Virus record (IMG/VR): IMGVR_UViG_3300045994_000614
Coordinates: 1 to 23,743 of that record
Reading direction: 5' to 3' (one strand)
From: a virus
Length of the DNA stretch: 23,743 nt
Under the pieces are notes generated by a model. That model saw only the letters and a program-made list of their open reading frames with translations, had not been told where the DNA came from and searched no databases. How positions within the stretch are numbered: the first letter of the stretch is position 1; each line of letters begins with the position of its first letter. Of the stretch, positions 4,580-13,616 are shown one piece after another. The position numbers and the translations under genes are program-made.

Positions 4580-4867
4580 ATGCCAAAAAAAATCAAATTC
4601 AAAGATCGTAAAGATCTAATTGATCAATTGATCATCAAGAAAAAGGATATTCCTGAAGCCAGTAAAGTAATCGATGATTTAGCTAAATCATTGGAACGTT
4701 ACCAAAGAGGTGACAGAGAAGCTATGCAACACGTAATTAAAGTACGTAAAAAGATCTTTAACACAAATGCTGAACTGTACATCGAATTAGATGAAACAGG
4801 TATGCATGATATGACAGTCGCTACACTCGACGTTCTTAACCTCATTGATGAAACTAATGAGGACTAA
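4580..4867 (+). CDS. Hypothetical small helical protein
   Basis: This 95-residue protein starts at ATG 4580. The frame is open upstream to a TTG at 4538, but that lies inside a terminator hairpin, and PKKIKFKDRK is a natural N-terminus. It is mostly helical and charged (LIDQLIIKKKDIPEASKV, ending in an acidic LIDETNED). No family recognised. The intergenic sequence after it carries two palindromes that may regulate the large gene downstream. Confidence 0.6.
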   Translation: MPKKIKFKDRKDLIDQLIIKKKDIPEASKVIDDLAKSLERYQRGDREAMQHVIKVRKKIFNTNAELYIELDETGMHDMTVATLDVLNLIDETNED

Positions 4868-4874
4868 AATATAA

Positions 4875-4900
4875 TTGTACTGTACAAATACAATATTGTA
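4875..4900 (+). promoter_or_regulatory. Twin palindromes, operator-like, before the 1086-residue gene
   Basis: TTGTAC-T-GTACAA (4875-4887) is a perfect inverted repeat, and TACAATATTGTA (4889-4900) is a perfect 12-base palindrome; both are built from TTGTA/TACAA half-sites. They lie 32-57 bases before the start at 4932, where a repressor or activator dimer would bind. A near copy (CCGTACAGTACAA) occurs at 14887-14899. No protein binding is demonstrated. Confidence 0.45.
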
Positions 4901-4931
4901 AATACTTAAAAAAACACTAAAAAAATCAATT

Positions 4932-7900
4932 ATGAGTAATAATCAACCACTCACACATGTAGATCGTTCTGAAGTTTTTAAAGAACTCCTTAAACAGGAT
5001 ATAAACGCTTTAAGAGGATTTATGTACAAAGATGCTAATGATGTCATCGATACTATTAAGTATTGGAAAGTAAGACGTCAGGAGCCTGATGTAGTTAAAA
5101 ACAAAGATCAAAGGGATACTATTAGCCTTGAAATTATAAGGCTTGAAGCACTTTTGTTAGGTAAGACAGAGTTTACTTTTTCTTACTTTAAAATTGCAGA
5201 AGATAATATTATCAGTGCATCTGCCGAAATAATGTCTAAGGACTTATTTAAATCAATAGAACCTGTGTCAGGTGATACAGTTGTTGATTTAATGAAGGAT
5301 CTTGTTGATAAAGGAGGAAAAGTAATTCCTATGTTACCTGAAAAGATTAAATTAGTTGATCTTCGTGAAAAATGTAAATCTTTACTTTTGGAAGGTAAAG
5401 GCGAAGAAGCTATAGCATTTGCAACAAAATATCTTTCTGTAGGTAATTATATTCCTGATAAAAAGATAAAAGGCAAACCTGATCTGTATCACAAAGGAAG
5501 AATAGAAAGTTGGGTTGCAGAGATAACAAGAGGCCTTAAGTTTGTTAATAACTTAGAGCCAAAAAACCAGCCAGCTCCAATAGTAGACAAAACCCCTACT
5601 ACGCCTGTAACAGAATTACAGGATACGAAACCTGGAGCAAAAGAGGTGATTGCGGATACTGTACCTTCTACAAAGGTGGAACCAGAACCTGTAAAGACGA
5701 AGACAGAAGATGAACCTATTGTACCAAGAGAAGGTAGTGTAGAAATCAATATGAAAGAAAATCCTGAAGCATTCGAAATTTGGATGGCAGCTTCCGGTAG
5801 AACACTTGAAGATTGGTTTGGACCAGAGTTAATGGAAGATGATAAATATAAAGAATTTGACAGCATTCAAATAAGTACAGAAGACGTAGATAATTTGGTT
5901 AAGGAATTAATAGAAATCTATGGATTAAAAGCTAGTGAAGTTGTTGATGAAGAAGCAGATGAAAAAGCCGATGAGGATAATGTAAGCTTTGAAAATGATG
6001 ATTTGTCATTAGATGAAGAGATTACTCATATAGAGGATTTCCTCGTTAAATTGCATAAACTAAGAGGTACTGATTCTAAGAAACCTGAAAATCTTGATGA
6101 GATAAAAGAATTATGCAATACTTTCTTTGAATCAAGAGAAGATGAAGATTATGAAGAACAGGACAAAGTATTTGAAATCATAAGAGATCATCCTGAGAAC
6201 CTTAAAGATGCTAAGGCATTCTTTAATCTTATTTCTTATCCAAAACCAATTTTACTGACTGCAAAAGACGGTAAAGGTGTAATTACAACTGACAATTATA
6301 ATTCTGTTATTCTAGAAATAGAATCAGATTTAAAAGAAGCAGAAAGTAAAAAAGGAAATGAAGTAGATAAAGCTGTAGCAAAACTTGAAGACAAATGGGT
6401 TAATCACTTAAGAGGTCACATACTTGCTAGTAAAGAACAAAGAGCAGATAAAACTTTCTACATTGCTAATAAAGTAACTTTTTATACTCAATATCATGTA
6501 TATGATTTTATTGATAAAATAGCTAATGCAGAAATTACTAGCAAAAGTACAGCAACTGCACAAAGTGCAGCAACCGTACCAAGTACGGAAATAAAAGTTG
6601 ATGTTGTTATACCAAGACCAGATAAAGCTCCTGCACCAAAAACTGAAGACAAGCCAGTAGAAAAGACTCATGTGTGTACTACTATTGAAGAAGCTCTTGC
6701 TTTAGTTGTAAAAAATGGTGGCAAAGAAGCAGATGCTCAGACTCACCCATTTTGTGAAGCATTAAAAGGTACTACAATTTCTGCAGGACCATTCAAAATG
6801 ACTCTTGATGAAGTTAATTACAAAAACTACATCAATAGTAAATATGATGAAGCTTTAGCTCTTTACAAGTCTACTTTAACAACATATCCAATGGAAGATA
6901 TGGCTACATTAATTTCACAAGCCGTATCTACAAAACAAACTCCAGAAGATTTCGTTAAAGAAAATCTATCTTTAATTCAAAAAGAAGATGGTACATTCTT
7001 AAAAGTAACTGGTAAATTAGGTGATGCAGATTATAGTGCTAATATAACTTCTGAAGAAACATTCCTTTCCTGGGTGAAAGAGATGTATGAATTAGAGGAG
7101 AAAATAGGTATTAATGATGAGCCTGAGAAAGTTTATGAAGTTTCTACTACTATCAAATCCTATGTGGATTTTGAAAAACAAATAAAAGATAAAGCTACTA
7201 AAGTGGCTTTACCAGAACTACAGAAGTGGGCAAGAGAGGTTGCTTGTGATAAAGTATTCGGTGAAGACAATCACAAAACACCATTCTGGTTCAGTGCTGA
7301 GGATAAAGTAGATTATTTAAATAACTACATCGAAGCGTTGACACGTGCTCATTATACAACACCAGAAAGTAAAGCTAAAAAAGAGACTGAGCTTAGCAAT
7401 TATATTATTTCAAAACTTAAAGGCAGTACTGATTCACTTTTTAATTTTGTAAATGAACTCAGAAAGTATTGCACAGAAAAGAATCTTGATTATAATCTTA
7501 AGAGCTTAAAGGCTATAGTCCTATCCCTTGCAGAAACTCACAATAAGACAATGTTAGATAATTATCTGAAATTGTCAGGTGAGACAAAAGACAAGGAACC
7601 TGTATCAAAAAAAGGAGATGAAAAACCAATTGTAAATGAAACAATTGCTCCTATTGTTGAAGAGAAGATAGATGATATCAAAGACACTAACACAATTGTA
7701 AGCAAAATCTTTGCAGAAGCAAAAGATGTTAAAGACAAGCTTGCATTTAGTAAAGTTATTTGGAAGTATAGAGGTAATTCAGCTGCTGTATTAAGAGCTG
7801 CCATACATTTAATAATAGGTGATAAAAGAATTGTAGACCTAAAGTTAACTACGGTTGGCGAAGTAAATACATGGGTATCTGAAATTATTAGCAAAACTTC

Positions 7901-8192
7901 CTTAGAAACTGCTCCTGTTGATGTAAAAGATAAATCAACTATTCCATCTACTGCTGTAGAAGAAGATTTGTTTATAATTTTTGGTAATTCTGAGAAAAAA
8001 ACATTCAGAGATAACTTGGATCGTTTAATAGAAGCAAACGAGGATTCCACAGAATTTCGTGGAAAACTTATTGATGCTATGAAAGCGAGTAAAGCATCTC
8101 ATGTAATGACTGTAGCTAAGCAATCTATGGAAGAAATGCACAAAATGATAAAGAGTGCATTCGAGAGAAAAGAGGATAAACAATTAAAATAA
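4932..8192 (+). CDS. Large multidomain protein with repeated PST linkers
   Basis: This 1086-residue protein is the largest gene in the window and is unrecognised. Acidic helical modules alternate with Pro/Thr/Lys-rich linkers near residues 215-265, 540-585, 875-920 and 985-1005, three of which carry a [VI]PST core (VPSTKVEPEP, VPSTEIKVDV, IPSTAVEEDL). Modules often end in a W-V-x-E-[IM] helix just before a linker or loop (SWVAEITRG, SWVKEMYEL, TWVSEIISK), suggesting a repeated fold. No enzyme motif, signal peptide or membrane segment is visible. It could be a scaffold, virion or host-interacting protein. The leader contains AAAAAATCAATTATG and twin palindromes. Confidence 0.8.
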   Translation: MSNNQPLTHVDRSEVFKELLKQDINALRGFMYKDANDVIDTIKYWKVRRQEPDVVKNKDQRDTISLEIIRLEALLLGKTEFTFSYFKIAEDNIISASAEIMSKDLFKSIEPVSGDTVVDLMKDLVDKGGKVIPMLPEKIKLVDLREKCKSLLLEGKGEEAIAFATKYLSVGNYIPDKKIKGKPDLYHKGRIESWVAEITRGLKFVNNLEPKNQPAPIVDKTPTTPVTELQDTKPGAKEVIADTVPSTKVEPEPVKTKTEDEPIVPREGSVEINMKENPEAFEIWMAASGRTLEDWFGPELMEDDKYKEFDSIQISTEDVDNLVKELIEIYGLKASEVVDEEADEKADEDNVSFENDDLSLDEEITHIEDFLVKLHKLRGTDSKKPENLDEIKELCNTFFESREDEDYEEQDKVFEIIRDHPENLKDAKAFFNLISYPKPILLTAKDGKGVITTDNYNSVILEIESDLKEAESKKGNEVDKAVAKLEDKWVNHLRGHILASKEQRADKTFYIANKVTFYTQYHVYDFIDKIANAEITSKSTATAQSAATVPSTEIKVDVVIPRPDKAPAPKTEDKPVEKTHVCTTIEEALALVVKNGGKEADAQTHPFCEALKGTTISAGPFKMTLDEVNYKNYINSKYDEALALYKSTLTTYPMEDMATLISQAVSTKQTPEDFVKENLSLIQKEDGTFLKVTGKLGDADYSANITSEETFLSWVKEMYELEEKIGINDEPEKVYEVSTTIKSYVDFEKQIKDKATKVALPELQKWAREVACDKVFGEDNHKTPFWFSAEDKVDYLNNYIEALTRAHYTTPESKAKKETELSNYIISKLKGSTDSLFNFVNELRKYCTEKNLDYNLKSLKAIVLSLAETHNKTMLDNYLKLSGETKDKEPVSKKGDEKPIVNETIAPIVEEKIDDIKDTNTIVSKIFAEAKDVKDKLAFSKVIWKYRGNSAAVLRAAIHLIIGDKRIVDLKLTTVGEVNTWVSEIISKTSLETAPVDVKDKSTIPSTAVEEDLFIIFGNSEKKTFRDNLDRLIEANEDSTEFRGKLIDAMKASKASHVMTVAKQSMEEMHKMIKSAFERKEDKQLK

Positions 8193-9551: not shown

Positions 9552-10946
9552 ATGAGTGATAAAGCAATAAAGTCTGTAATCATTAATGAAGAACTTAATG
9601 TATTATTTTATTCTGAACCACATCAGGTATTAGATAATAGAAAGCGAACATTATTTGCAACTATATCATCTTTACCATGGTTTAAGCAAGTAGTAGGCCT
9701 ACAGAATAAACTATATATACTACGTAAATCAGATGCTTTAGACATTACAGATAGTGAAATTAACGCTGCAATGTATGAAGCTGTATCTGCATCTATGAAG
9801 TTAGAAGACTTAAGAACATTACTTTATGGTAACTTTGTAAAAAGACATAGAGTTATAAATATGTTTTCTTCTGGAGTAGATAAAGTACATCCAAGTTTAA
9901 TCTACTTTGATAATAACACTATATATGAAAGTATATTAAAACTATCTGATTCATTATCATTGCCTGATCTTGACCGCAGAAAAATATATTCTGAGGTAGA
10001 TTACGATTATGCACCTGTATGGACTATACTATTACCATTAGTAGAGAATGCCATTTTTGTATCAAATCAATCTCAAGCTGAGATATTAATTGAGTCTTCA
10101 TCATCATTTGAAGATAAATGGAACTTTGTTACCGGAGAATTATATGAAACAAGGATTATCGGTAAATTATTAATGGAAGACTGGTTATACTGGCCTTTCA
10201 GAGTAATTACTAGATATTTATTAAGAAAGCACCTTAATTACGGGACAAAGAAAAAGGCAATTATTATTATAAATGCCTTCCTATCACCAAGGATATTAAA
10301 AACTGTCTTAGCTAAATTTCCGATTTATACTACTTATGGTATGCAGGAATGTAATCATATTCTAGCTATTAACGATTATTCAGGCGTTGATATGTTAGAA
10401 GATAATTGTGTAGGTAAATTTATTAAAGGAGTATCAGGAGATATAAAACAATTATATCATACTGCAGACGAAGGTTCCTTAGTAATTACTTCTAAGCTTT
10501 TAAGTGACTATCTTTCTTTTGAAAGAGATATTTGGTGGGATACCAGAGATCATGCAAACATAAAGAATGATTTGTTATTTATATATGGTAAAATGAGATA
10601 TAATATAGATAACTCTAGTACTATAGGAGCAAACTTTGAAAATGTGGAACGTATAATAAAAAGCGTACCATACTTTAAAGAAGTACTAATATTCAAGGAT
10701 GGTAAAGACATGTATCATGTATTAGTGTATCCAAACATGAAATCTGTTGAAGCTATACAGCGTGGACTATTGTATCTTTCATCAATCATAAAGCCATTTG
10801 TAGGCATGCTAAATGAAAACTTTGGCATTGATTTCTTTGTAGATATAAAAGTAATGCATTCACCATTCTTAAAATCTCATACTGATAAAATCCGTAAAGG
10901 AGCTTATATTGCTATTATAGAAGAAGAATATAAACAAAAAGGTTGA
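9552..10946 (+). CDS. Divergent acyl-CoA synthetase-like (ANL superfamily) adenylating protein
   Basis: The uninterrupted part is 464 residues; with the upstream segment it would be about 551, normal for the family. ANL enzymes activate a carboxylic acid as acyl-AMP. Landmarks, numbered from ATG 9552: INMFSSG (102-108) in place of the Ser/Thr/Gly-rich P-loop, but the following TTGxPK is replaced by VDKVHPS; TTYGMQE (260-266) for the YGxTE motif; WWDTRD (328-333) for TGD; IYGKMR (344-349) and FENVERII (362-369) for the GR hinge and following helix; DKIRKG (445-450) with a Lys at the usual catalytic position. The segment before YGMQE resembles long-chain acyl-CoA synthetases. The altered P-loop makes activity uncertain. 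Such genes are unusual in phages. Confidence 0.7.
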   Translation: MSDKAIKSVIINEELNVLFYSEPHQVLDNRKRTLFATISSLPWFKQVVGLQNKLYILRKSDALDITDSEINAAMYEAVSASMKLEDLRTLLYGNFVKRHRVINMFSSGVDKVHPSLIYFDNNTIYESILKLSDSLSLPDLDRRKIYSEVDYDYAPVWTILLPLVENAIFVSNQSQAEILIESSSSFEDKWNFVTGELYETRIIGKLLMEDWLYWPFRVITRYLLRKHLNYGTKKKAIIIINAFLSPRILKTVLAKFPIYTTYGMQECNHILAINDYSGVDMLEDNCVGKFIKGVSGDIKQLYHTADEGSLVITSKLLSDYLSFERDIWWDTRDHANIKNDLLFIYGKMRYNIDNSSTIGANFENVERIIKSVPYFKEVLIFKDGKDMYHVLVYPNMKSVEAIQRGLLYLSSIIKPFVGMLNENFGIDFFVDIKVMHSPFLKSHTDKIRKGAYIAIIEEEYKQKG

Positions 10947-12540
10947 TGTTGTTGTACTTAGATAAATGACTGCAAACTGTCATCTACACTAAATAGGTAG
11001 GATCTTTAAATAACTGAATGCATGAAAGGGCAGTCTCCATACGGGGATCAAATCAGGAAGTGATCGGCTAAGGTTTAACAACTATAAACAAGTTATTCAT
11101 TCTAACATAGAATGTCAGCAGACCATAGATTGAGGTCAAATGCTATAACCCTTCATGATAATCAAAATGCATTGGTGCATGTAAGGTACGCATACCTGGT
11201 ACACGAAGTTGAAGTGAAGAACTAAACTATAAGTCTTTCTATGAGAAACATTATGAGTAGCAAGAAGGGTGGAATCCCCAGGTAAAAAATTGTCTGTTAA
11301 GGCTACCGAAGAAATGCTAGAATAACATCGACACAAGGGTTGTGTGGGAGGAAAAAGAGTCGAGGCAGTGATTGTCTTGGTTACGTTTAACGAGGCGGTG
11401 TACTTAAGTGTACAACAGCTGGGCAACGAATATTCTAGATCCCCTACTCTCGGCAATTGTCACGAGGACTAAAGAAATCGGGAGAAATGAGAGAAACGGG
11501 GTGACGTATGACTAACGGGAACAATAAGAGGTCAACTATCGCCAGTTATTATTGGGATGACTGGGGTTAAAAGCAGGATCTAATCCCTATTTCTGTAATT
11601 GTCATAAAACAGGGGGTCAAAGACGACCTGGGAATAGGAACAACTGTGAATGATAGAAAGGATATTATTTTTGCTACACTGTAAATAAAAATTCAAGTAA
11701 TCGTAGTACTAAGAGACGTTCTTATATACATTAGCATTATGTAAGAATAAGTTCAAAAGTAGCCCATGGTTAATGGGATGCCTTATGGCTTCGTGGTTGA
11801 AATCCACCGTTGAAAGAATAATAAAATACAGCCAACTATTTGGATAATAGACATTTTCCCAACAATACATATCAGATTCTGGAGTATCTTACGTAAAGGC
11901 CTACAATAGACGTGATGTCACGACACTAATGGGTCTTAAGATATAGAAGGACAACCCACCGCAGGTAGAACCGGCTAAAGAGGTAGGGGGTGAAACCTAC
12001 TCATTATTAAGTGCACTATTACATTAGGTACATGTGTTGAAGTCGAAAAAAAGAGTAAAGGATTATCATTATAGTCAAACACTCACTTCTTTATATATGT
12101 CAAAAAATTAACAAATTTTTCTGATTGAGGAGAAGAAGTAGATCCTAAAGAATATCTTAGGATAGTATCACTATCTAACTAGTAGGACATCATTTAATAA
12201 GTAAATACACAACGAGTGTACGTTATACAAACAACGTGTTATATTAGACATTATATGTCGAAAAATATGAAAAATGTTCCATAAGTTAAGCAAGGAACTA
12301 GAACTACAGGCTTACAAGCAGGAAGCACTCAAGTAGTTAACGTAATCCATTTCTGTTTGGTATACAGTTTAGTCAGCAATGAGTAGATGTAGACTATCGA
12401 TAAGAGGAGACCATAGCATTCAAATCTTGAGAAGAATAAATAACATAAGAGTAAAAAAGGATTTCAAAGCGCATGAAGCGAAAATGTACTCATAAGTTAA
12501 CTACTCTGCTTCAACACTAATTTGGCTAAACATTAGCGTT
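10947..12540 (+). ncRNA. Giant (about 1.6 kb) structured non-coding region
   Basis: No + strand reading frame resembles a protein, and a 106-codon frame on the - strand (11136-11456) has no family features. Perfect short hairpins crowd the sequence: ATGAC/GTCAT (10966), CATTCTA/TAGAATG (11098-11114), ATGCA/TGCAT (11167), AGGTA/TACCT (11184), ACACAA/TTGTGT (11331-11345), TGTAC/GTACA (11399), CCCAT/ATGGG (11763), GTGG/CCAC (11793), ATCCTAA/TTAGGAT (12142-12163) and GCTAA/TTAGC (12525-12537). CCTATTTC (11586) pairs with GGAATAGG (11631) around an internal GGTC/GACC hairpin. Base composition is more balanced than in the genes, especially at 11260-11640. I see no group II domain V and no convincing group I core. 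It resembles giant phage RNAs of the GOLLD/ROOL type in style, but I cannot assign it. Confidence 0.65.
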
Positions 12541-12999
12541 ATGAAAATTCAAAGTTATAATCATTTTAAACTTTTAAAAAGTGATCTCCCAGAGATTACC
12601 AAAAACAAAGTTATTACAGATGTAGATGTTGGAGGGATAAAACTTGTTTATCAAGTTACCATACGTCAATGTTTAACTTTCTTATTTTTTGATAAGCTTA
12701 TTATAATACCATTACCATCTTTACATATTTCATCTATTCAAAAAGTATTTCTTAAACCATATAAAGAATATTATTCTAGAATAAAAGAAAATAAAAATTT
12801 ACCTAAAAGTTTATGGGGTAAAAATAATGATCCATTAACAGCTTTATGGGTAGAAATGGAATTTGATTATGAAAGTGTTAAACCAGGCAAAAGTATAATA
12901 GAAGATAAAAAAGAAATAAGAGATACAAACATTACAAAGCATTTGAATAAAATAGAAAAATCTTTTTTTATAAAATCAAAGAACAATCAATTTGTTTAA
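12541..12999 (+). CDS. Hypothetical protein after the giant RNA
   Basis: This 152-residue protein is unrecognised. Its first half is beta-like (VDVGGIKLVYQVTIRQ, then LTFLFFDKLIIIPLPSL), and the C-terminus is a basic, Lys/Asn-rich helical tail. It is very AT-rich. Its ATG begins three bases after a small hairpin (GCTAA-ACA-TTAGC) that ends the structured non-coding region, so its translation may depend on how that RNA folds. Confidence 0.6.
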   Translation: MKIQSYNHFKLLKSDLPEITKNKVITDVDVGGIKLVYQVTIRQCLTFLFFDKLIIIPLPSLHISSIQKVFLKPYKEYYSRIKENKNLPKSLWGKNNDPLTALWVEMEFDYESVKPGKSIIEDKKEIRDTNITKHLNKIEKSFFIKSKNNQFV

Positions 13000-13022: not shown

Positions 13023-13616
13023 ATGGAAGACCAGAACAAAGAAAACAGAAACGAGAATCGTAACGAAAACCGTAATGAAAAGAGAGATAAAGAATTTCTC
13101 AAAGGTGAAGCTCAGGGTAACAAGAGTGGTCGTGATCTTATTAATGTCACGATAAGTAAGGATATGTTGAATGCTTTAAGCCAGGCTGCAAGAAATGCAA
13201 TCAGTCTTGAGGAAGCTGCATTGGAAATTGATACTGTAAATCCAGCAAAAATTACGTTGGAAGCTACTCTTTATATGCTCAAGAGTAAACCTGCAAATGA
13301 CAAAATCTCTAAAAGAGATGCTAAGAAAAAAGATTGCTTCACACCTAAAGTAGTAGGTATTGTATCTGTAGAAGTTAATACTATGACAAATGTAGTAAAA
13401 CCTGGTTTTATTACTATTAATGGTAGTATTGATATTCCAAAATCAGGTCGTCGTATTGTAAAAGCAGACGAATGTATTTTTGACAACGAACTTGATGCAA
13501 GAGAAGTTGCAAGAGTATTGACTGAAATTGAACTTGAAAGAGCTACTGAAATGTTGAATGAAGCCACAGAAGCTGTTAATTTTATCAAGAAACAGCTTGA
13601 TGACGATCGTTACTAG
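13023..13616 (+). CDS. Hypothetical protein with Asn/Arg/Glu repeat N-terminus
   Basis: This 197-residue protein starts with low-complexity NENRNENRNEKRDKE repeats (residues about 7-24), probably disordered. A soluble alpha/beta domain follows (DLINVTISKDMLNALSQA; VVGIVSVEVNTMTNVVKPGF; a GRRIVKADECIFDNELDARE segment) and then a long charged C-terminal helix (EIELERATEMLNEATEAV). The leader AAAAAATCAATTATC and less AT-biased codons match the 1086-residue gene, suggesting high expression. No family recognised. It ends with TAG before a hairpin-rich spacer. Confidence 0.65.
   Translation: MEDQNKENRNENRNENRNEKRDKEFLKGEAQGNKSGRDLINVTISKDMLNALSQAARNAISLEEAALEIDTVNPAKITLEATLYMLKSKPANDKISKRDAKKKDCFTPKVVGIVSVEVNTMTNVVKPGFITINGSIDIPKSGRRIVKADECIFDNELDAREVARVLTEIELERATEMLNEATEAVNFIKKQLDDDRY

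Follow-up and report, generated by a model that had tools for sequence, protein, structure and literature searches.

The interval between positions 10947 and 12540 of the window (the whole 23,743-nucleotide stretch analysed, from a 23.7 kb virus contig) very probably holds a phage-encoded gene, read from the + strand, for a giant structured non-coding RNA of ∼1.5 kb; the phage belongs to an environmental lineage that is sister to the Suoliviridae. The initial annotation of this DNA had proposed a candidate structured RNA of ∼1.6 kb here, and that interpretation is supported by covariation, by homologs and by the absence of a coding frame. The window encodes a DNA polymerase B, a helicase, an AAA ATPase and a sigma factor, from which it was placed among the crAss-like phages. 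We propose that the RNA gene is inherited vertically in this sister lineage (Crassvirales), that its product has a multi-domain fold containing pseudoknots and T-loop modules, and that two RNA copies could pair loop to loop through a palindrome that varies yet stays palindromic. An equivalent and probably homologous RNA of 1.8–2.5 kb would occupy the same place in the Suoliviridae.

The open reading frames on either side abut the interval, the upstream one ending at 10946 and the next beginning at 12541. The longest open frame within the window interval does not exceed that of shuffled sequence under the standard code, with TAG read as Q or with TGA read as W, and under the same three codes none of ten homologs contains a frame above shuffled sequence. 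Hence the interval is gene-free, as first described, and a conserved coding frame in related phages, which had been named as evidence against an RNA, was found in none of the ten homologs. A protein-coding gene, recoded stops included, was rejected since no open frame exceeds chance and none is kept in the 11 homologs. The composition is also more balanced than that of the genes, with a GC content of 0.37 across the interval and up to 0.41 inside it compared with ∼0.30 in genes. Between the sigma-factor region and the RNA, positions 4932–8192 encode a 1,086-residue protein that has no match in PHROGs and matches Pfam only below threshold.

The search for relatives started from three genes (DNA polymerase, helicase and upstream neighbour) and from a motif within the RNA. 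A homologous gene-free interval of 1.3–2.0 kb, on the same strand and between the same two flanking genes, was present in ten further distinct crAss-like contigs, and these homologous intergenic regions showed strong covariation when aligned. The 11 distinct contigs are the window, G003 (= G011), G005, G007, G009, G010, G028, G030, G034, G050 and G053. A homolog of the upstream neighbour matches PF00501 below its cut-off; the window protein itself, a very divergent acyl-CoA synthetase-like sequence, is missing ∼90 N-terminal residues of its relatives. When searched against 50,697 phage records, neither the interval (blastn) nor the upstream neighbour (tblastn) gave a match. A DNA pattern run on bacterial genomes gave seven matches, none of which is counted because no profile match was convincing; the best (E 9e-5 over 42 nt) was in L067, itself picked by the same motif. 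This contig, part of a Trichodesmium MAG, carries at 802–834 a short likeness to the GGGTGGAATTCCCTGG...CTGTTAAG motif with no phage context seen, and the likeness is probably due to chance. Among more distant DNA polymerase B relatives, L054 (1106–2204) and L047 (3936–4876) have gene-free intervals of ∼1 kb upstream of the polymerase, and L054 gave a weak match to the G007 RNA (E 5e-4).

Helices were sought across the whole alignment of eight homologs, antiparallel stacking representing real helices and parallel stacking serving as control. With G-U pairs allowed, 11 antiparallel and 2 parallel helices had at least three double-changed pairs and 6 versus 0 had at least four, and with Watson–Crick pairs only the window clade gave 6 versus 0 helices with at least two such pairs. 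The analysis covers 11 homologs in all, in automatic alignments of a very divergent RNA, with slid and parallel controls as the correction for phylogeny. In a separate alignment, the named helices of the 5′ domain were paired in 96.3% of cells compared with 30–49% in slid controls, with 14 of 20 pairs double-changed and a covariation score reached by none of 500 shuffles. The named helices of the T domain were paired in 85.6% of cells (35–54% slid) and 19 of their 32 pairs are double-changed. Claimed helices are limited to those with several double changes; the automatic scan also gives overlapping low-value alternatives. The single-sequence fold of positions 10950–11940 is modestly stabler than shuffles (z −1.6, with 1 of 20 shuffles at least as good). 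Hairpin counts within one sequence are weak evidence, and the signal beyond chance is the covariation across homologs, in which the proposal of a structured RNA is borne out: the homologs share a conserved, non-coding, multi-domain base-paired structure with pseudoknots. Features are collected in Table 1.

Table 1. Features of the RNA interval and its neighbours, in window coordinates.
Feature	Position	Strand	Evidence
Upstream neighbour, divergent ANL-superfamily (AMP-binding) protein, synteny marker	9552..10946	+	Profile versus 2-succinylbenzoate-CoA ligase 3ipl, E 1.5e-10
Probable giant structured RNA, whole intergenic region	10947..12540	+	No ORF beyond chance; homologs at the same place in 10 further contigs; covariation
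5′ hairpin, 5-bp stem, 8-nt UGNGAAUU-like loop, starting 20 nt past upstream stop codon	10966..10983	+	Full pairing with differing letters in 7 homologs
Long-range helix 11117-11121 / 11294-11298 (pseudoknot)	11117..11298	+	100% of cells paired; 3/5 pairs changed on both sides
Putative kissing-loop hairpin, stem 11141-11144 / 11189-11192 plus inner stems	11141..11192	+	Covarying stems; folds put palindrome in apical loop in most homologs
8-nt palindrome AAUGCAUU in apical loop, predicted intermolecular kissing contact	11166..11173	+	8/8 homologs keep an 8-nt palindrome
Helix 11257-11261 / 11302-11306 around T-loop-type hairpin GGG-UGGAAUC-CCC (11267-11279)	11257..11306	+	5/5 enclosing pairs double-changed, 100% paired
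Helix 11573-11576 / 11644-11647 around 11586-11593 / 11631-11638, inner 11615-11618 / 11625-11628	11573..11647	+	Four double-change pairs in outer helix
T domain, closed by 11663-11670 / 11842-11849, with helix 11672-11677 / 11731-11736 inside	11663..11849	+	98.4% and 91.7% paired; 4 and 5 double-changed pairs
Three-hairpin module: CCCA/UGGG 11763-11777, GCC/GGC 11780-11789, T-loop hairpin GUGG-UUGAAAU-CCAC 11793-11807	11749..11811	+	Covariation
3′ hairpin	12468..12482	+	Four double-change pairs among 8 homologs; imperfect in window
Conserved 3′ element GCUUCAACAC	12508..12517	+	Near-invariant in most window-clade homologs
Downstream neighbour, conserved protein without named family, synteny marker	12541..12999	+	Homolog after the RNA in 11/11 window-clade members
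Second downstream neighbour, likewise without named family, common to other environmental clade	13023..13616	+	hhalign of both clades' alignments, E 3e-5, probability 73%

The 5′ hairpin illustrates how far the letters change while pairing is kept, its stem occurring as ATGAC/GTCAT, ATAGC/GCTAT, GTAGC/GCTAC, CTGGC/GCCAG, ATTGC/GCAAT and GTGCAC/GTGCAC. Within the 5′ domain the fold has two crossing helices: the long-range helix 11117–11121/11294–11298 crosses 11257–11261/11302–11306 and both contain compensatory changes, which together define a pseudoknot. A nested helix picked out in the initial annotation is present, CCTATTTC at 11586–11593 pairing with GGAATAGG at 11631–11638 and enclosing GGTC/GACC, and four homologs retain its outer helix while differing in sequence (CTTTGTTC/GAACAGAG, CCTATCT/AGATAGG, CTTATTTTG/CAAAATAAG and TTCATTC/GAATGAA). 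This helix was checked by hand because the MAFFT alignment slipped one column in some homologs; the same check gave only partial support for the inner AAA-loop hairpin. Since the helix at 11586–11638 is kept in four homologs and the hairpin 20 nt past the upstream stop in seven, the structure spans the interval from end to end. A further T-domain helix (P3, with 11731–11736 in its loop) is plausible by eye and is not claimed because only 32.6% of its cells are paired in the automatic alignment.

A scan for sites that change yet remain palindromic identified one place only, in both the eight-row and the eleven-row alignments. Four versions of the 8-nt palindrome occur there, AATGCATT in the window, CATGCATG in five homologs, TGTTAACA in G053 and AGCATGCT in G007, and a 6-nt palindrome is found in 10 of the 11 homologs, adding CAATTG within ACAATTGT in the more distant G034 and TACGTA in G050. 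The palindrome is mostly preceded by AA(A), and GAG often comes after it. In most homologs the predicted folds place it in the loop of a stable stem; for the window and G030, a rival local hairpin taken in isolation is somewhat stabler, and G034 folds poorly. Adjacent letters of one loop cannot pair intramolecularly, and a covarying palindrome is therefore a sign that two molecules pair with each other. In OLE and GOLLD, intermolecular contacts visible by cryo-EM are backed by the same reasoning, from loops that switch between palindromes (PMC12286853). The alignments thus provide sequence evidence for a symmetric intermolecular kissing loop of the kind sought in giant ornate RNAs, and the RNA is likely to form a homodimer or larger homo-oligomer through its palindromic loop. 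Dimerisation is a clear prediction of this loop, and a cheap one.

Two 7-nt T-loop-type hairpins are present, at 11267–11279 and 11793–11807. The second belongs to the 66-nt three-hairpin module, in which 98.3% of cells are paired compared with 28–60% in slid controls, 7 of 12 pairs are double-changed, and the arms follow the order of a class II tRNA (anticodon arm, long variable arm, T arm). Some homologs have a canonical T loop at this place, UUCAAAU in G009 (T arm GUGGG-UUCAAAU-CCCAC) and UUCGAAU in G053. A covariance model of the module (R1), built from five homologs, with the variable insert between GCC and GGC omitted from some of them, recovered it in three sequences outside the training set, the window (E 2.5e-10), G003 and G005, and weakly in G028 (E 0.013); all matches were at the expected place and strand, and the E-values are rough. 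A second model (R2, helix 11257–11306 with its T-loop-type hairpin), built from eight homologs, found the untrained G028 (E 3e-5), G034 (E 0.015) and G050 (E 0.12), again with rough E-values and with matches inside the interval on the correct strand. With R1 and R2, the T-loop module was not detected in gut crAss-like phages.

We tentatively favour a role for the RNA in infection as a scaffold or assembly over one as a message or an antisense regulator. This reading is by analogy with GOLLD, ROOL and OLE; for GOLLD and ROOL an RNA-only assembly that could act as scaffold or compartment has been proposed. The RNA could instead act in trans, as an RNA or ribozyme whose tRNA-like module bears on translation or RNA processing. 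The arm order at 11749–11811, the canonical T loop of some homologs, the preservation of both by covariation, the second T-loop-type hairpin and the tRNA genes nearby in related genomes would all fit such a role. However, ARAGORN and Rfam found no tRNA or tmRNA in the interval or its homologs, and the module was not found in the gut relatives. T loops are moreover common in large RNAs for purely architectural reasons. We consider a role of this kind unlikely, if worth bearing in mind.

All 16 named Suoliviridae genomes examined (L163–L169 and L171–L179, representing Uncouvirinae, Loutivirinae, Boorivirinae and Oafivirinae) have a gene-free interval of 1.9–2.5 kb at the equivalent position, with a gene of ∼180–210 codons on one side and, on the other, a short gene lying downstream from the sigma factor. 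These intervals are unannotated save for an antisense hypothetical ORF in cr7_1, cr109_1 and cr113_1, which is probably spurious. A second environmental clade (L107, L110, L117, L131, L135, L137 and L140) has its own conserved structured interval of ∼1.8–2.3 kb at the matching place; it contains a GGGGTGGAAATCC hairpin that is similar to the T-loop hairpin of the window. Scans were run on the Loutivirinae, Oafivirinae, Boorivirinae, second environmental clade and window clade, and with Watson–Crick pairs only the first four gave 16, 10, 6 and 4 helices, respectively, with at least two double changes and no parallel helix in any of them. No comparable interval was found in the replication module of crAss001 (Steigviridae) or crAss002 (Intestiviridae). 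In a helicase tree the window clade stands apart from the Suoliviridae and the second clade, the deepest fork being weak. In L003 the helicase gene is broken by ∼0.9 kb, probably an intron (4819–5724), and the helicase of cr118_1 is annotated as two pieces.

At the level of primary sequence, homology of the window clade to the gut Suoliviridae was not demonstrable, and the two are linked by synteny, size and covarying structure only. One ancestral RNA across the deepest split is the simplest reading, and the RNAs of the two groups are probably homologous. Somewhat more speculatively, the Suoliviridae and their environmental sister lineage may share one ancestral core non-protein gene of 1.3–2.5 kb, retained by practically all genomes, whose product would form an RNA-only homo-oligomeric particle in infection and would be the largest known ornate RNA.

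The neighbouring genes bear on whether the structure could be a leader (5′ UTR) element controlling the gene at 12541–12999. The interval does reach the start codon of that gene on the same strand, and the gene is kept throughout the window clade. In the second environmental clade, however, this gene is absent and the second downstream gene directly follows the interval; no riboswitch or leader family matched, and a leader would need neither such size nor a conserved dimerisation loop. Control of this gene by a leader is thus improbable. The RNA is probably transcribed together with the neighbouring genes.

Transcription itself would be unnecessary if the interval were a cis-acting nucleic-acid element, that is, a replication origin, a packaging site or a single-stranded DNA structure. 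It adjoins replication genes in every clade, and covariation alone cannot separate RNA from folded single-stranded DNA. Strand asymmetry speaks against such an element, as G-U cells outnumber A-C cells by 6 to 1 in the 5′ domain helices, favouring RNA from the + strand, and as the + strand also yields more helices in two gut groups, the Loutivirinae and Boorivirinae, with the remaining three groups neutral or nearly so. This constitutes moderate sequence evidence for the + strand reading. To our knowledge, 1.3–2.5 kb with pseudoknots and T-loop modules is also far beyond known origin elements, and an untranscribed element is accordingly a distinctly poor candidate. A mobile or decayed self-splicing intron can be set aside almost entirely even though group I introns abound in delta-group crAss-like phages (PMC7886860), because no intron model matched, the two flanking genes are intact and independently conserved, and distant phages have the interval at one fixed position, not sporadically, in keeping with the initial view that this is not an intron in an obvious host gene.

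Very large structured RNAs are rare, and those recently solved are RNA-only complexes whose roles are unknown. The window RNA is larger than these, has no Rfam 15 relative and has a fixed place in a family with well-sequenced human gut members. If it is transcribed, protein-centred annotation has missed a core gene in a major part of the human virome, and if the single-ancestor reading is true, one of the most abundant human gut virus groups would have the RNA as a core feature. Much of the human gut virome thus appears to carry a giant RNA without prior description. Text searches of open-licence literature found no earlier description, so that one elsewhere is possible; the words non-coding, noncoding and intergenic are absent from a comparison of crAss-like genomes (PMC7886860) and from a review of the Crassvirales (PMC10136315).

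In covariance searches with Rfam 15 the window matched none of GOLLD, ROOL, OLE, HEARO and the group I/II introns, whether the gathering thresholds were applied or matches were accepted up to E = 5, and none of these families matched the ten homologs up to E = 1; chance snoRNA/lncRNA matches below threshold were all that appeared. The library search is effective, since the same library found a group I intron elsewhere (in L140). By the membership tests taken together, the RNA is not GOLLD, ROOL, OLE, an intron, a tRNA, a tmRNA or a TROVE-linked Y RNA. It is nonetheless a large non-coding RNA with extensive covarying structure and pseudoknots, as giant ornate RNAs are, and the expectation that it would be larger than GOLLD or ROOL was confirmed, at 1.3–2.0 kb in the window clade and up to 2.5 kb in the gut relatives.

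Bacterial Y RNA (YrlA, which acts with a Ro60/TROVE protein) contains a tRNA-like module, as does the window RNA, which is far larger. A TROVE/Y RNA link, prompted by the TROVE gene of crAss001, was rejected, no TROVE protein being found in the window or in 27 related records, several of them fragmentary. In crAss001 itself (MH675552, 95965–96869) a 0.9 kb gene-free stretch adjoins the TROVE (Ro60-like) gene and could hold a Y-type RNA. The palindromic loop is comparable to the HIV-1 DIS, where a purine-flanked palindrome in an apical loop directs homodimerisation by kissing; the window loop differs in having mostly an 8-nt rather than a 6-nt palindrome, in its flanks and in lying within a large non-coding RNA, and no kinship is implied. 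OLE is bacterial and ∼0.6 kb, unlike the window RNA, which has no Rfam match to it. Both are large RNAs, and OLE forms dimers and has a covarying palindromic loop, L9.3 (PMC12286853). ROOL is likewise a large ornate RNA with several pseudoknots, occurs near tRNA islands and forms an RNA-only cage of unknown function (PMC12286853); the window RNA differs from it in having no Rfam match and no motif seen in common, and the solved ROOL is 659 nt. GOLLD differs in length (∼0.8 kb compared with 1.3–2.5 kb), in its host phages and in its modules, and the window RNA has no Rfam match to it. However, GOLLD too is a very large pseudoknotted phage or prophage RNA, often near tRNAs, and it is a homo-oligomer with a symmetric kissing loop that changes palindromes (PMC12286853), as the oligomer here is predicted to be from sequence. 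We infer that the window RNA is related to none of GOLLD, ROOL and OLE and may nevertheless work in their manner.
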